Shown in pieces: positions 36,612 to 64,000 of a stretch of DNA of 64,000 bases (within the stretch, counting starts at the first letter, position 1; every line of letters begins with the position of its first letter). This DNA comes from an uncultured Clostridia bacterium. Lineage in GTDB: Bacteria; Bacillota; Clostridia; Christensenellales; UBA1242. Below the pieces are notes generated by a model. The model saw only the letters and a program-made list of their open reading frames with translations. It was not told where the DNA came from and searched no databases. The stretch lies in contig CALVZQ010000006.1 in NCBI GenBank assembly GCA_944372585.1, positions 43,749 through 107,748 on the forward strand, in the 5' to 3' direction. The position numbers and the translations under genes were made by a program.

Positions 36612-37082
36612 TTATTTAAGTTGATTTTTCCATTCTTCAAAATTGTATCTTGGATTTGCCGAACTTGTTGAGGACATATAGATCACTGGAATTTCTGTTG
36701 GATATAGTTTGAGAAAAAGATTGTATGCTGTCTTGCCATTGCAAAGCACTTTTTCTATTTTTGTGTTTGGTGGAAATAAAAATGAAAAGTCGGCGGTGGT
36801 TATGTTTGATTTTTCTAGGTCAATATCTGCGGAGCCTTTTAAATCGCTTTCTTGAATTACGTCCCATAGGGCGATGTTGTGTTTTTTTAGAAATGCTTTT
36901 TTGTCATCTGTGTTGTCCGAAATATTTTCATTGTAAACTTGTTCAAGCATTTTCCAAAATCGGTTTTGTTTGTTTCCGTAATAAAATCCTACGACGCGAC
37001 TCTTGACACTTGGAAAACTGCCCAAAATCAATATCTTTGAGTTTTCATCATAAATTGGGTCAAAGCCTTTATTCTTTTCCAT
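36612..37082 (-). CDS. DNA-deoxyinosine glycosylase (uracil-DNA glycosylase superfamily)
   Basis: A 156-residue single-domain glycosylase. ILILGSFPSVKSRVVGFYYGNKQNRFWKML, here quoted in parts as GSFPSVKSR and FYYGNKQNRFWK, is the signature of the hypoxanthine-DNA glycosylase group, which removes deaminated adenine from DNA. The late motif YMSSTSSANPRY fits the second conserved block. It starts one base inside the stop of the upstream nucleoside hydrolase (TAATG), so the two are expressed together. Confidence 0.83.
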   Translation of the reverse strand: MEKNKGFDPIYDENSKILILGSFPSVKSRVVGFYYGNKQNRFWKMLEQVYNENISDNTDDKKAFLKKHNIALWDVIQESDLKGSADIDLEKSNITTADFSFLFPPNTKIEKVLCNGKTAYNLFLKLYPTEIPVIYMSSTSSANPRYNFEEWKNQLK

Positions 37083-38041
37083 TATGATTCCATGTTTTTT
37101 AAAAAAGTTTTGTCTGTGATTTCAATTTTGCCCAATTCTTTGAGCTTTTTGAAAAGCATTTTTTGAATTTTGTTTCTTTTTACTCCAACAACAATCTTAA
37201 ATGTTCCTTTTTTGTTGTAATGAGCAAATGTTTTTCCGATGTCTTTTTCTGTGTCTACTTCAATGTCCGCTCTTTTTGTTTTGTAAAACCTTGGATAAAT
37301 CAAATAATAAGCGGTGACAATATCATTTGTTGTAATCCTTTTGTCTTTGTATCCTGGTTCCCAGTATGTTTCATATGTTTTTGCCAAAAATTTTCCAATG
37401 ATATTGGTGTTTTTTATTTCTTCAACTTGAGATTCTGTAAAATAACTCTCATCACTCCCTATACTTGATGGACACATTATGGTTGGAATTTTTGAATCAA
37501 CTGTTATTTTGAATGCAGGAGCATCTGTTCTGATGTTGAAAGATTTGTGATTTGGATCTGAACGTTTTCCATTTGGAGCTCCACCCATCATCAAAATATT
37601 TTTGATCAAGTCTTTGCTGTCAGGGTGTTTCATTAGAAGATGTGCAACATTTGTGTGAGGACCAAGCACTATCAAGGTGACTTCTTTTGGATTTTGTTTT
37701 AAAATGTCATACATCGCATCGGCCGCTTCAACTTTTTTAGGTTTGTGCTTTGTGGTTTTTGGTGGTTGATAATTTCCCAAGCCTTCTTTTCCGTGCATAA
37801 AAGTTGCATCTTCTGTGTTGTTGCCAAGACGCTTTTCATAGCCTTTTACGACGGGAATGTCTTTGTTGAAGATATCTAAAATGTGACATATATTTCTTGT
37901 TGCGTGGTCAATGTTGATGTTTCCGTTTGCAATTGTAAACAGTTTTATGTCAAATTGTGGATCGTTCAAGAGATATATAAGAGCGTTTGTGTCATCAACG
38001 CCAGGATCTGTGTCAACGATAACTTTAAATTTTTTCTTCAT
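37082..38041 (-). CDS. Nucleoside hydrolase (inosine/uridine-preferring family), paralogue 1
   Basis: A 319-residue N-ribohydrolase releasing a base from ribonucleosides. The calcium-binding DTDPGVDDTNAL motif, TIANGNINIDHATRN and LGPHTNVAHLL are present. In the C-terminal active-site segment the usual His-Asp reads Asn-Asp (ITTNDIVTAYYL), so the leaving-group acid differs. AGGAG precedes the ATG at 38041. It forms an operon with the deoxyinosine glycosylase and is one of three such hydrolases in the window. A specific substrate cannot be given. Confidence 0.88.
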   Translation of the reverse strand: MKKKFKVIVDTDPGVDDTNALIYLLNDPQFDIKLFTIANGNINIDHATRNICHILDIFNKDIPVVKGYEKRLGNNTEDATFMHGKEGLGNYQPPKTTKHKPKKVEAADAMYDILKQNPKEVTLIVLGPHTNVAHLLMKHPDSKDLIKNILMMGGAPNGKRSDPNHKSFNIRTDAPAFKITVDSKIPTIMCPSSIGSDESYFTESQVEEIKNTNIIGKFLAKTYETYWEPGYKDKRITTNDIVTAYYLIYPRFYKTKRADIEVDTEKDIGKTFAHYNKKGTFKIVVGVKRNKIQKMLFKKLKELGKIEITDKTFLKNMES

Positions 38042-53736: not shown

Positions 53737-54675
53737 TTATGTTCTTTTTGGACTACATTTTTCGAGGGCTTCAAAAAGATCATATTTAAACATATTTATG
53801 TCTAAGTCTACACATACGGTCGCATTTGGTTTTTTGTCAAAATCTATGTCTACATAACCATAATCATCTGTTTCAGTTTTGTAATATTTAATTTCGATGA
53901 ATGCCTTTTCTGTCTTTATATATTCAGGGTGGGTGAGATAGTAGATTGTGCAAACATCGTGAACAGCAGCACCCATTTTTCCAACATGGTAGTCATTATA
54001 TCCTTTAAACATTTTTGCATAAATTTTTCCAATTTTGTTTGTTTTTTTGAATTTTTTGATGTCGTTATGGTCAAGATATGCAAAGTGACCAAGTTCCATT
54101 GGTACCATAACAAGCTTAATTCCGCTTTTAAACACTACTTCTGCAGCTTCAGGGTCATATCCAATGTTGAAAGACTTATATGGTTTTCCATAAATTTTTT
54201 CTTTTGTTCCGCTTTCAAAAATGATTTCTTTGATATATTTTTTACAGTCAGGAAATTTCTGTATCATTTTTGCCAAGTTTGTCATTGGACCAATTGACAC
54301 AATAGTGATTTTTTTCTGAGAGCTTTTTAGTGTTTGATATATGATATCGCATGCCTCACCTTTAACGGGTGAGTGCTTAAGTTTTTTCTTGTTGTATGAA
54401 TAAGCACCAAGTCCATTTTTTCCTTGAGCTTTGATTGCATAGTTTGCTGGACGAACCAATGGAGTTGCAGCACCTTGAACTACGGGTATTTCTTCGTTGA
54501 ATAACTCGGTGATGTGAATGGCATTTGCTGTTATGTTTTCTATTGGACCGTTTCCACCAGCAGAAGACAACAACTTTATGTTGAATCTTTCACTTTTTAT
54601 TGCATAGAGAAGTGCAATTGAGTCATCAACACCTGGGTCGGTGTCTATGATTAAATCTATTTTTTTGTCTTCCAT
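53737..54675 (-). CDS. Nucleoside hydrolase, paralogue 2
   Basis: A 312-residue N-ribohydrolase with the calcium site IIDTDPGVDDSIALLY, SAGGNGPIENITANA, SIGPMTNLAKM and a C-terminal AAVHDVCTIYYL that keeps the catalytic His-Asp, unlike the other two copies in the window. AGAGGAAA lies before the ATG at 54675. The protein is about as similar in layout to paralogue 1 as expected for an old duplication. It may salvage purine or pyrimidine nucleosides. Confidence 0.88.
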   Translation of the reverse strand: MEDKKIDLIIDTDPGVDDSIALLYAIKSERFNIKLLSSAGGNGPIENITANAIHITELFNEEIPVVQGAATPLVRPANYAIKAQGKNGLGAYSYNKKKLKHSPVKGEACDIIYQTLKSSQKKITIVSIGPMTNLAKMIQKFPDCKKYIKEIIFESGTKEKIYGKPYKSFNIGYDPEAAEVVFKSGIKLVMVPMELGHFAYLDHNDIKKFKKTNKIGKIYAKMFKGYNDYHVGKMGAAVHDVCTIYYLTHPEYIKTEKAFIEIKYYKTETDDYGYVDIDFDKKPNATVCVDLDINMFKYDLFEALEKCSPKRT

Positions 54676-56578: not shown

Positions 56579-57256
56579 ATGAATAAAAAAGACGATTTAA
56601 CAGAAAAAGAAATTAAACAAATTTTCCAAATGTATAAAAATGCACATACCTTAAAAACCGTTTTAAGAAGTGGCTGGGTAAAATGGGGTTTAGACAAAAA
56701 GATTAGGCATGAAAGCATTGCAGAGCATGTCTATGGTTGTTGTATGCTTGCTCTTTCAATTTTTGCTAATGGTGGTGCAATGAATTTGAATGTTGATAAA
56801 GTCTTTACAATGCTTGTTCTTCATGAAACTGAAGAAATTTTTATTGGCGACATAACTCCATTTGACAAGAAAGTTGGAGACAAAAAAGAATTGGGAAAGA
56901 AGGCTGTTATGAAATTTTTTGAAGGTGCTCCAAATGCTGATTATTTTTTGAAAATCATTGAGGAGTTTGAGACTAATGAGACGGAAGAAGCCAAATTTGC
57001 TCATCAAATTGATAAGTTTGAAGCAGATATTCAGGCGAAGTATTATGACAACCATTTTGTTGAGAAGAAAGATAAAAGTGTTTTAAAAAGTGAAAGAATT
57101 ATGAGATATAAAGCTTTGGGTTATACTAAAGTTTCAGATTTTTTTATTTTATATCACAAACATATCTTTGATGATTATTTCTTGAAATTACTTGAATATT
57201 TGGAAAATGATGATGAGATTGATAGGGAGTATGATGCTGGTGAAAAACAGAACTAA
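56579..57256 (+). CDS. HD-domain phosphohydrolase, YfbR/HDDC2-like, with His-Glu in place of His-Asp
   Basis: A 225-residue HD-superfamily protein. The opening VLRSGWVKWGL and RHESIAEHVYGCCMLAL resemble 5'-deoxynucleotidases (YfbR, HDDC2), which remove phosphate from deoxynucleoside monophosphates. H50 and H82 are present, GDITPFD follows as in those enzymes, but the defining Asp after H82 is Glu83. Activity may therefore be altered. The gene overlaps the nucleoside hydrolase-phosphoesterase fusion by about 23 bases, suggesting that its nucleoside product is the next enzyme's substrate. Confidence 0.8.
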   Translation: MNKKDDLTEKEIKQIFQMYKNAHTLKTVLRSGWVKWGLDKKIRHESIAEHVYGCCMLALSIFANGGAMNLNVDKVFTMLVLHETEEIFIGDITPFDKKVGDKKELGKKAVMKFFEGAPNADYFLKIIEEFETNETEEAKFAHQIDKFEADIQAKYYDNHFVEKKDKSVLKSERIMRYKALGYTKVSDFFILYHKHIFDDYFLKLLEYLENDDEIDREYDAGEKQN

Positions 57257-58661
57257 AGTGTTGATTGATTCTGATATTGCTAATGAAATCGATGACCAAT
57301 TTGCTTTGGCCTATGCTTTTTCTTGTCAAGATAAATTGGATATTTTGGGAATTACGATTGCACCTTTCAGAGTTTCTTGGCAAAAGAATTTGTCAATTCG
57401 TGATGGTATGATTGACAGCAAAAATGATGCTTATAGACTTCTTCGTTTTTTTGGAATTAAACATGATAGCAATAATCCATTTGTGTATTTGGGGTGTGAA
57501 GGCTTCTTGTCTGAGGGGTATAATTCCACAAATCCTGCCGTTGAAAAAATAATACAGTTGGCACATGAGAATAAATCATTTTACATTTGTTGTCTTGGAA
57601 CCTTGACCAACATTGCCATGGCTCTGCGCATTGAGCCTTCCATTGCTTCAAAAATTAAAGTGGTTTGGCTTGGCACAGATAATGTCCTTTTGGACAAGTT
57701 TGAAGATACAAACTACAAAAAAGATATTCAGGCATTTAACGAAATTTTGGCAAGTAAAATAGATTTGACAATTTTTCCTACATATCTTGCAAGAACATTT
57801 GTGACTTCAACTTATGAATTTTCTCAAAACGTCAAAGGAAATCATGTTGCAAAATACCTCACTTCAATTATGAATAATTTTATTTTCACTGAAGAGAATT
57901 TGGGGATTAAAACAATTTATGACATAGGACCAGTTGCTTATTTGCTTCATAAAGACAAGTTTGAGGTTAAAAAGATTGATGCTCACATTATCTTAAAAAG
58001 CAAAGATATGAAAATTGATGATGCCAGAAAGGTCAACTATATTATCTCTATTCCAAAACACTCTTTTGTTTGGTGTGATTTTTTGAAGGCGATTAACTCA
58101 AATAAAGATTATTATTTCAAACCAGATATTTTCTTTATATCGGACACACACTTTAATCATGAAAGAAAGGTTAGATTGAAACAGGTCCCATTCAAGACCG
58201 TGGAAGAGATGAACAAAGAGTTGGTTAAGCGTTGGAACAATAAGGTTGGGCCAAATGATATTGTCTATCATTTGGGTGATTTTGGTGACTATGATTTTGT
58301 TAAAAAACTTAATGGAAAAATTCATTTGATTTGTGGAAATTATGAAGAAAAAGACTATGGAAAAAACTTTGAAGAGTTTAGAAAGAAACTTATAAAACTT
58401 GGCTTTGCTGATGTTATTAAAAATGGTGTTTATCTTGATAAGAAAGTGTTGGGCGAAAAAGTTTATTTAACTCATAAACCATCAAATCATGCAAAAGATT
58501 GCTTGACAATATTTGGACATGTTCATGATCTTGCTCTTGTCAAGAAATTTGGATTTAATGTTTGTGTGACTTATCATTATTTTTCGCCTATAAGTCAAAA
58601 AACTGCAAAAAAATATTTGAATTTTGTTAAGAATTTTGCTGACGGAGAAGTGTTTATTTAA
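57234..58661 (+). CDS. Fusion of a nucleoside hydrolase and a metallophosphoesterase
   Basis: A protein of about 475 residues with two enzyme domains. Residues 1-295 are a nucleoside hydrolase: VLIDSDIANEIDDQFALAYAF carries D12, D14, D20 and D21, and CLGTLTNIAMAL is the central conserved loop; the usual C-terminal His-Asp reads Tyr-Asp (IYDIGPVAYLL). Residues 298-475 are a calcineurin-like phosphoesterase: SDTHFNH, HLGDFGD, LICGNYE, LTHKPSN and GHVHD. The start is chosen as ATG 57234 after AGGGAG, but 57231 or GTG 57240 is possible. I know of no described enzyme with this fusion. A terminator follows. Confidence 0.85.
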   Translation: MLVKNRTKVLIDSDIANEIDDQFALAYAFSCQDKLDILGITIAPFRVSWQKNLSIRDGMIDSKNDAYRLLRFFGIKHDSNNPFVYLGCEGFLSEGYNSTNPAVEKIIQLAHENKSFYICCLGTLTNIAMALRIEPSIASKIKVVWLGTDNVLLDKFEDTNYKKDIQAFNEILASKIDLTIFPTYLARTFVTSTYEFSQNVKGNHVAKYLTSIMNNFIFTEENLGIKTIYDIGPVAYLLHKDKFEVKKIDAHIILKSKDMKIDDARKVNYIISIPKHSFVWCDFLKAINSNKDYYFKPDIFFISDTHFNHERKVRLKQVPFKTVEEMNKELVKRWNNKVGPNDIVYHLGDFGDYDFVKKLNGKIHLICGNYEEKDYGKNFEEFRKKLIKLGFADVIKNGVYLDKKVLGEKVYLTHKPSNHAKDCLTIFGHVHDLALVKKFGFNVCVTYHYFSPISQKTAKKYLNFVKNFADGEVFI

Positions 58662-60371: not shown

Positions 60372-60442
60372 AAAATTTATGCATGAAATTGTTTTGATTA
60401 CTTTGAATTTTGTTGTAAAATATAAATCAAGGAGTGTGAGGA

Positions 60443-61807
60443 ATGATTAATATTGCAATTGATGGTTTCACAGGAAGTGGAAAATCTACGCTTGCAAAGG
60501 TTCTTGCTCAAAAACTTGGAGATAATTTTAAGATTTTGGATACTGGAGCTATTTTCAGAGGGCTTGGCTATGCTTTTGATTTGGCTGGCTATAAAGATAT
60601 GACCGTTGAAAACATTTCGTCATTTTTGAAAGATGTTGATGTGAAAGTTGTTTTTATTGATAATCTTCAACATATTCTCATAAATGGCTCTGACATAACA
60701 AATTATATCAGAACAGAGAAAGTCAGCCAGTTGGCTTCAAAAATTTCGGTCTTTCCTGCAGTTCGTGAGAAGTATTTGGAAATCGCAAAGAAGTTTGCTC
60801 GTGAACATGATTGTGTTATGGAAGGAAGAGATATTGGAACTGTGGTTATGCCAAATGCTGATGTCAAAATCTTTTTGACTGCTGATGAAGATAAAAGAGC
60901 AAAAAGAAGATTTGATGAACTTGTTGCTAAGGGGACAAATGTTTCTTATGATGAAGTTTTGAAAGATTTGAAGGAAAGAGATTTTCGTGACAGCAGTCGT
61001 CCAGTTGCACCATTGATGCCTACGGAAGACAGTCTCATTGTTGACAATTCAGAAATGTCTTTTGACGAGACCGTTGATTTTTGTTTGGACATAATCAATA
61101 GAAAAATCAATGAAACTAAAACCATTAATATCGCAATTGATGGTTATGTTTGCAGTGGAAAGAGCACAATCACGAAAGCTCTTGCAAAAAGATTGAATTT
61201 CAGAATTTTTGATACTGGGGCGATTTATCGTGGCATCGCTTGTGCATTTGTTTATATGAACTATGATGAAAGCAAAATTTCAGATGAATACATCTGCAAG
61301 TTTGCAAAACAAATCAATGTCAAAATTGAATTTATGGACGGAACTGAACACGTTTTTGTCAATGGAATTGATTACACACCATATCTGAGAACTGAGAGAA
61401 CAAGTGTTCTTTCAGCCAAAATTTCACCTTTTACTTGCATCAGGAAGAAAGTTCTGTTTTTGCAAAGAGAGTTTGCTAAACATAACAATACAGTTATGGA
61501 AGGAAGAGATATTGGCTCGTTTGTTTTGCCAAATGCAGATTTCAAATTCTTCTGCACCGCTGACGAACAGGTGAGAGCAAGAAGAAGATATGAACAGCAA
61601 AGAGCATTGGGAAATGATGTGACTTATGAAGAAGTCTTGAAAGATTTGAGAGAAAGGGATTACAAAGATGTCCACAGAGAACATGGTGCCATCAAACTTC
61701 TTCCTGATTCAATCATCATTGACACAACAAATCAAAGCCTTGAGCAAAGTGTTGATTTTTGCATCAAAGAAATAAAAAAGAAATATCCTGATATAAATGT
61801 CATGTGA
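60443..61807 (+). CDS. Tandem (duplicated) cytidylate kinase
   Basis: A 454-residue protein with two complete CMP-kinase-like domains. Domain 1 (about 1-220): IDGFTGSGKSTLAKVLA, ILDTGAIFRGLGYAF, VMEGRDIGTVVMPNADVKIFLTA quoted in part, RDFRDSSRPVAPL. Domain 2 (about 229-454): IDGYVCSGKSTITKALA, FDTGAIYRGIACAF, MEGRDIGSFVLPNADFKFF, RDYKDVHREHGAI. Both P-loops and DTGA-x-x-R motifs are intact; the Pro-Leu after the last Arg is changed in domain 2. AAGGAGTG precedes ATG 60443. Cmk is usually a single domain of about 220 residues. It phosphorylates CMP/dCMP; division of labour between the halves is unknown. Confidence 0.9.
   Translation: MINIAIDGFTGSGKSTLAKVLAQKLGDNFKILDTGAIFRGLGYAFDLAGYKDMTVENISSFLKDVDVKVVFIDNLQHILINGSDITNYIRTEKVSQLASKISVFPAVREKYLEIAKKFAREHDCVMEGRDIGTVVMPNADVKIFLTADEDKRAKRRFDELVAKGTNVSYDEVLKDLKERDFRDSSRPVAPLMPTEDSLIVDNSEMSFDETVDFCLDIINRKINETKTINIAIDGYVCSGKSTITKALAKRLNFRIFDTGAIYRGIACAFVYMNYDESKISDEYICKFAKQINVKIEFMDGTEHVFVNGIDYTPYLRTERTSVLSAKISPFTCIRKKVLFLQREFAKHNNTVMEGRDIGSFVLPNADFKFFCTADEQVRARRRYEQQRALGNDVTYEEVLKDLRERDYKDVHREHGAIKLLPDSIIIDTTNQSLEQSVDFCIKEIKKKYPDINVM

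Positions 61808-63018: not shown

Positions 63019-64000
<982 letters not shown>

Follow-up and report, generated by a model that had tools for sequence, protein, structure and literature searches.

We found a protein in which a cytidylate kinase (Cmk) is joined in frame to a second cytidylate kinase. Its gene lies in the window, that is, in the whole stretch of 64,000 nucleotides from an uncultured Clostridia bacterium that we analysed, and the same architecture is seen in related genomes of the genus, none of which has the UMP kinase PyrH over cut-off. With moderate confidence, and by comparison of sequences, we take the protein to be a two-site pyrimidine-NMP kinase: both halves would be active, on CMP and dCMP and probably on UMP, with sites that have diverged in base preference.

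The tandem protein and its locus

The gene (60443-61807, forward strand) is open from ATG to stop in the reading-frame check of the window and codes for 454 amino acids. In Pfam, PF02224 matches the protein in two stretches (394.1 bits for the whole protein, cut-off 26), and in the genome search the N-terminal half scores 212.9 and the C-terminal half 186.2 bits, each match running over model positions 1-210 of 211. The cytidylate kinase profile TIGR00017 also matches in two stretches, with 393.6 bits against a cut-off of 135.55. The N-terminal half (aa 1-223; 60443-61111, forward strand) has the P-loop GFTGSGKST and the motif DTGAIFR, the C-terminal half (about aa 224-454; 61112-61804, forward strand) has GYVCSGKST and DTGAIYR, and EGRDIG is common to both. 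Two full CMP-kinase domains in one frame of 454 residues are what the earlier note had claimed from the sequence, and the motifs are as it described them. A Cmk usually has one kinase domain per chain and this protein has two; because the single domain is usual for the family but is no part of the profile, we classed each half as a Cmk domain and the complete chain as an architecture of a new kind.

In the AlphaFold model of the tandem protein (built on an alignment of two sequences; mean pLDDT 78.8, pTM 0.53) the order of Cmk elements is present twice, and Foldseek ranks 1-21 for the model are all CMP kinases. The low-confidence segments of the model (184-191 and 409-418) are those that hold the loops in which the halves differ (R186-P-V-A-P-L and R412-E-H-G-A-I), and the packing of the two halves against each other in this model should be regarded as unreliable.

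A ribosome-binding-like AAGGAG (60429-60434, forward strand), read from the sequence, lies 8 bases 5' of the start codon. The promoter-like match at 60394-60421 on the same strand (9/12) is weak, since the stretch contains 18 matches of this quality where shuffled sequence gives 13.0 +/- 3.8. Upstream of the kinase gene there are six tRNA genes and a 239-aa protein with no family over cut-off; downstream there is a protein of the uracil-DNA glycosylase superfamily on the opposite strand, followed by the start of a 16S rRNA gene (63020-64000, forward strand), 1.2 kb 3' of the kinase gene. By a simple pattern, a 16S start was seen downstream of the tandem gene in 7 of 35 stretches, and several stretches with long contigs behind the gene are without it, so this proximity is not general. 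Elsewhere in the window, a nucleoside hydrolase and a calcineurin-like phosphoesterase domain share one 489-aa frame (57192-58661, forward strand); a further nucleoside hydrolase is found at 53737-54675 and, by eye, another at 37082-38041.

The genome to which the window belongs is a draft assembly of 11 contigs (1,121,691 bases, 97.8% complete), in which the tandem frame is the sole place with PF02224 over cut-off. Two further matches are weak and cover only model positions 1-32 and 3-35.

When we compared the protein with known systems, each half shared the profile match, the predicted fold, the P-loop and the NMP-site residues with bacterial Cmk (TIGR00017, PF02224; for example E. coli 1CKE/2CMK and S. 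aureus 2H92). The tandem differs from these enzymes in having two domains per chain and, in its C half, in having A101 and H-G-A where Cmk has S101 and V/I-A-P. In AroA-Cmk (NF008816), PanC-Cmk (NF010004) and Cmk-Der (NF007071), Cmk is likewise joined in frame to another domain, but there the partner is another enzyme whereas here it is a second Cmk, and all three NCBIfam profiles are below cut-off on the tandem protein. The eukaryotic UMP/CMP kinase and the bacterial PyrH catalyse the same UMP reaction that the tandem would catalyse if our hypothesis holds, but they belong to other families, the eukaryotic enzyme being related in type to adenylate kinase. PyrH is a member of the amino acid kinase family (excerpt of PMC12667214). 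Two cmk copies in one genome are described for Haemophilus influenzae, with no fusion mentioned in the excerpt (PMC3603445); in our case the two are in one chain, and there is no PyrH over cut-off.

Distribution and history of the duplication

Among the 112 genomes of the genus, 97 have PF02224 over cut-off, and we assigned them to classes from the match table and a reading of all 97 Cmk places. The tandem frame is found in 36 genomes, complete in 35 and running off the contig end in one (G019). One genome (G009) has two adjacent, separate Cmk genes and another (G063) a lone C-type gene; in six, the Cmk frame continues into an epimerase-like domain. A single Cmk of the C-half group is present in four genomes and another single Cmk in 47, and two (G011, G114) have Cmk fragments. 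Of the 72 good genomes, all have rplB but seven are without a Cmk over cut-off. On the species tree there are nine Cmk-negative genomes, each of which would require its own change, and 18 of the 35 tandem loci run out within 2 kb 3' of the gene, so these negatives are likely to reflect gaps in the assemblies. Some of them may be real losses, and if the absence in 7/72 is real, another route exists.

Outside the genus the architecture appears to be rare in what was sampled; the earlier note had proposed to search genomes for it. In a sample of 396 genomes of the order, the full-length matches to the tandem protein are all from this genus among the matches listed (best first); a diverged tandem may exist elsewhere, for instance in the Cmk frames of about 470-530 aa in families f3 and f6. 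In a sample of 398 genomes of the phylum, the window itself is the only full-length match among the matches listed (best first). Many genomes of f3 and f6 have a Cmk match in such a frame, and these frames are probably further Cmk fusions. In five of the genomes with 470-530-aa frames (G488, G601, G508, G518 and G571) there is one Cmk match per genome, which disfavours a tandem there; others have a second match, so that a tandem is conceivable in them. A scan of genome contigs gave a single locus, on CALWJY010000009.1 ('uncultured Clostridia bacterium'), with 67% identity over aa 1-447. In the other genera of the family, at least 13 of the 179 genomes carry two full-length Cmk genes that are separate, and two Cmk matches are seen also in some genomes of other, PyrH-bearing families. 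Among the papers listed by text searches of open-licence literature, none describes a Cmk fused to a Cmk or a natural loss of PyrH.

Several long frames were rejected as tandems. The 555-567-aa frames of six genomes of the genus (L101, L102, L103, L104, L153 and L154, in a sister clade) contain Cmk and then an NAD-dependent epimerase-like domain; five were read and one, L101, was scanned with Pfam. The 621-aa frame of G138, a genome of another genus (L162:2923-4785, reverse strand), is Cmk, acyltransferase and NUDIX by Pfam, and its neighbour is another Cmk gene, which is not fused to it. In the phylum sample, G990 has a 462-aa frame that looks by eye like Cmk followed by a PlsC-type acyltransferase.

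The species tree was built from 16 ribosomal proteins (2675 columns) with a quick search and midpoint root; rplB was found in 82 of the 112 genomes, and 79 of those are in the tree. The tree includes 23 tandem genomes, and these make up a single clade of 28 genomes (support 100) together with G063 and four Cmk-negative genomes; the sister of this clade is G009 (support 100). The duplication is thus specific to a lineage, a point which the earlier note had proposed to settle with a tree. The two Cmk genes of G009 are 31 bp apart and in the same order as the tandem halves.

In the Cmk domain trees, the N halves are monophyletic and the first G009 gene is their sister, and the C halves cluster together with the G063 gene, which is flanked as at the window locus, by tRNA genes upstream and 16S downstream. 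The Cmks of a sister clade, four single and six fused to an epimerase-like domain, group with the C halves (support 85 in one tree and 77/88 in another, both unstarred). When both halves, the G063 gene and both G009 genes were constrained as one clade, the tree was 26.7 lnL worse and not rejected (AU p 0.186), so an origin of the paralogues inside this lineage is not rejected. Constraining the C halves together with G063 and the second G009 gene gave a tree 4.7 lnL better than the free one (p 0.584). The simplest history would be that two adjacent genes were fused once and that the N half was later lost in G063.

A Cmk from another genus of the family (L269, in genome G156) joins the N halves (99/95), which may reflect transfer or old paralogy. 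This genome carries two unlinked Cmks, L268 with Y40, A101 and the loop REESPM, and L269 with F40, S101 and the loop REIAPL. The pair repeats the contrast of the tandem at positions 40 and 101, which hints that the same pair of Cmk types may have been assembled twice.

Active sites and selection in the two halves

Both halves of the window protein have all eight of K18, R41, R110, R131, D132, R181, D185 and R188 (E. coli numbering). S36 is replaced by T in both halves; Y40 of E. coli corresponds to F38 in the N half and Y262 in the C half, and S101 to S99 and A325. Across the tandem proteins, K18, R41, R110, D132, R157, R181 and D185 are invariant in 36/36 N halves. K18 and R41 are likewise invariant in 36/36 C halves, and R110, D132, R157, R181 and D185 in the 35/35 that reach those positions. 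R131 is kept in 35/36 N halves and 35/35 C halves, R188 in 30/36 N halves (K in five, N in one) and 35/35 C halves, and position 36 is T in every half except one C half with V.

The differences between the halves are also shared by the tandem proteins. Position 40 is F in 36/36 N halves and Y in 36/36 C halves, and position 101 is S in 35/36 N halves and A in 33/35 C halves. The contrast in the last catalytic loop that the earlier note had read from the window protein (RPVAPL against REHGAI) holds as well: positions 190-192 are H-G-A or H-G-E in 35/35 complete C halves, so that H-G is fixed, and A191 and P192 are each found in 29/36 N halves. We take R157, R181 and S101 to have roles in Cmk, that of S101 being presumably base recognition, and base-pocket mutants of E. 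coli Cmk are reportedly the subject of a FEBS J paper of 2007. Roles of residues in the CMP site, including the stacking of position 40 on the base, are given in an excerpt of PMC3603445, according to which a change of R188 abolished the activity of Yersinia Cmk.

Not all of these differences are particular to the tandem. Of the 61 Cmk domains of the genus that stand outside a tandem, 10 have A101, and an H-G or Y-G loop is present in some other single Cmks; since both occur in non-tandem Cmks, A101 with the H-G loop is no tandem signature. F40 is rarer outside the tandem: the first G009 gene is the one case among these 61 domains, and of 24 domains from beyond the genus 4 have it.

Both halves are under purifying selection. 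For the N halves dN/dS is 0.027-0.13, with 12 of 13 pairs giving a value, and the C halves have 0.015-0.103 (13/13 pairs). The C halves are better conserved than the N halves in 556 of 595 species pairs, that is, the N half evolves faster. Together with the K or N at position 188 in 6/36 sequences, this may mean that the N half is weakening in some species. The halves of the window protein are 48% identical to each other, and over 35 proteins the identity between the halves of one protein is 38-50%.

The UMP kinase PyrH and a proposed role for the tandem

We searched for PyrH with TIGR02075 (cut-off 243.9). None of the 112 genomes of the genus has a match over cut-off (two have weak matches, 36.2 and 25.5 bits), and neither has any of the 197 sampled genomes of the family, 36 of which have weak matches of at most 38 bits; the window genome has no TIGR02075 match anywhere at E 0.001. 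In an order sample of 151 genomes, 143 belong to other families and 133 of these have PyrH over cut-off, against 0 of the 8 from this family. Among the control genomes 14/14 gave a match, 10 of them over cut-off. An order family, f20 (G055, G336, G357, G375, G392, G407 and G431), is the mirror image: its genomes have PyrH over cut-off and, with the protein as query, no match to the tandem Cmk at E 0.001.

In E. coli, pyrH is essential, and cmk on a plasmid or overexpressed lets the cell lose pyrH completely (excerpt of PMC3386227). The UMP kinase activity of Cmk is described as low (excerpt of PMC3603445), and UMP is accepted by the Cmk of Thermotoga maritima (excerpt of PMC10248530). Taken with the missing PyrH, these results would be explained most simply if Cmk had taken on UMP as a substrate in this family, and since the whole family appears to be without PyrH, the fused enzyme most likely makes all pyrimidine diphosphates. 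The tandem is not required for life without PyrH, because PyrH is missing alike from tandem and single-Cmk genomes of the genus. A search for uracil phosphoribosyltransferase (upp) found none over cut-off in 112 genomes of the genus (8 weak matches; controls 14/14 matching, 12 over cut-off), which puts UMP production in these cells in question and counts against a UMP-kinase reading.

The mechanism that we propose is as follows. Two Cmk paralogues, adjacent at first, would have been fused once in one clade of a genus with small genomes. Each half would have the full CMP-kinase fold, including a P-loop and an NMP site, and would probably be active. In a family apparently without PyrH, the fused enzyme would supply all pyrimidine diphosphates (ATP + CMP, dCMP or UMP to CDP, dCDP or UDP), and its two sites would have drifted apart in base preference and shared the pyrimidine substrates between them. 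A splitting of substrates between the halves, as suggested in the earlier note, stays plausible, and it gains weight from the lack of PyrH over cut-off in the family, a fact beyond that note.

Potentially, both halves could be plain CMP/dCMP kinases with one and the same function, kept by dosage or drift, with UMP handled by an unrecognised enzyme or avoided by import of UDP or UTP. We consider this less probable. In its favour, the CMP site is kept in both halves, relatives with a single Cmk also live without PyrH, no upp is over cut-off in the genus, and 7/72 good genomes are without Cmk too. On the other hand, the base-site differences are fixed throughout the clade, and the low identity between halves of one protein argues against plain redundancy.

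It is rather unlikely that only the C half is catalytic and that the N half is regulatory, or decaying and being lost. The better conservation of the C halves and the loss of R188 from 6/36 N halves would agree with this, as would G063, which stands within the tandem clade and whose gene at this locus is of the C type alone, and the grouping of the sister-clade Cmks with the C halves, with unstarred support. But K18, R41, R110, D132, R181 and D185 are intact in 36/36 N halves, the dN/dS of the N halves is low, F40 is fixed and S101 is kept in 35/36 of them, and the N-grouping L269 stands as one of two Cmks in its genome. The earlier note had allowed for a regulatory half; with the CMP-site residues kept under such selection a purely regulatory role becomes less likely, and the faster evolution of the N half and its loss of R188 in 6/36 sequences are what still speaks for it. 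An assembly or sequencing artefact, which the earlier note had named as what would undo its claim, fits the draft state of the window genome (11 contigs) and is nevertheless rejected as next to impossible, since the halves are just 48% identical and the frame recurs in 35 other genomes, with 23 of the 36 tandem genomes in one clade of the species tree.

Returning to the two-site pyrimidine kinase, we see the double Cmk as what may be a natural stand-in for the missing UMP kinase. More tentatively, the family may have lost PyrH and use Cmk in its place, and the tandem would then combine, in one chain, two active sites each tuned on its own to UMP or CMP. Bacteria would in this way have arrived, through duplication and fusion, at an equivalent of the UMP/CMP kinase of eukaryotes. 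PyrH is discussed as an antibacterial target (excerpt of PMC12847342). If our reading is true, these bacteria would present a natural case of the laboratory swap in which extra Cmk replaces PyrH, and the genus would offer a stepwise series of single gene, adjacent genes, fusion and loss of one half, in which specialisation after duplication would be directly testable.
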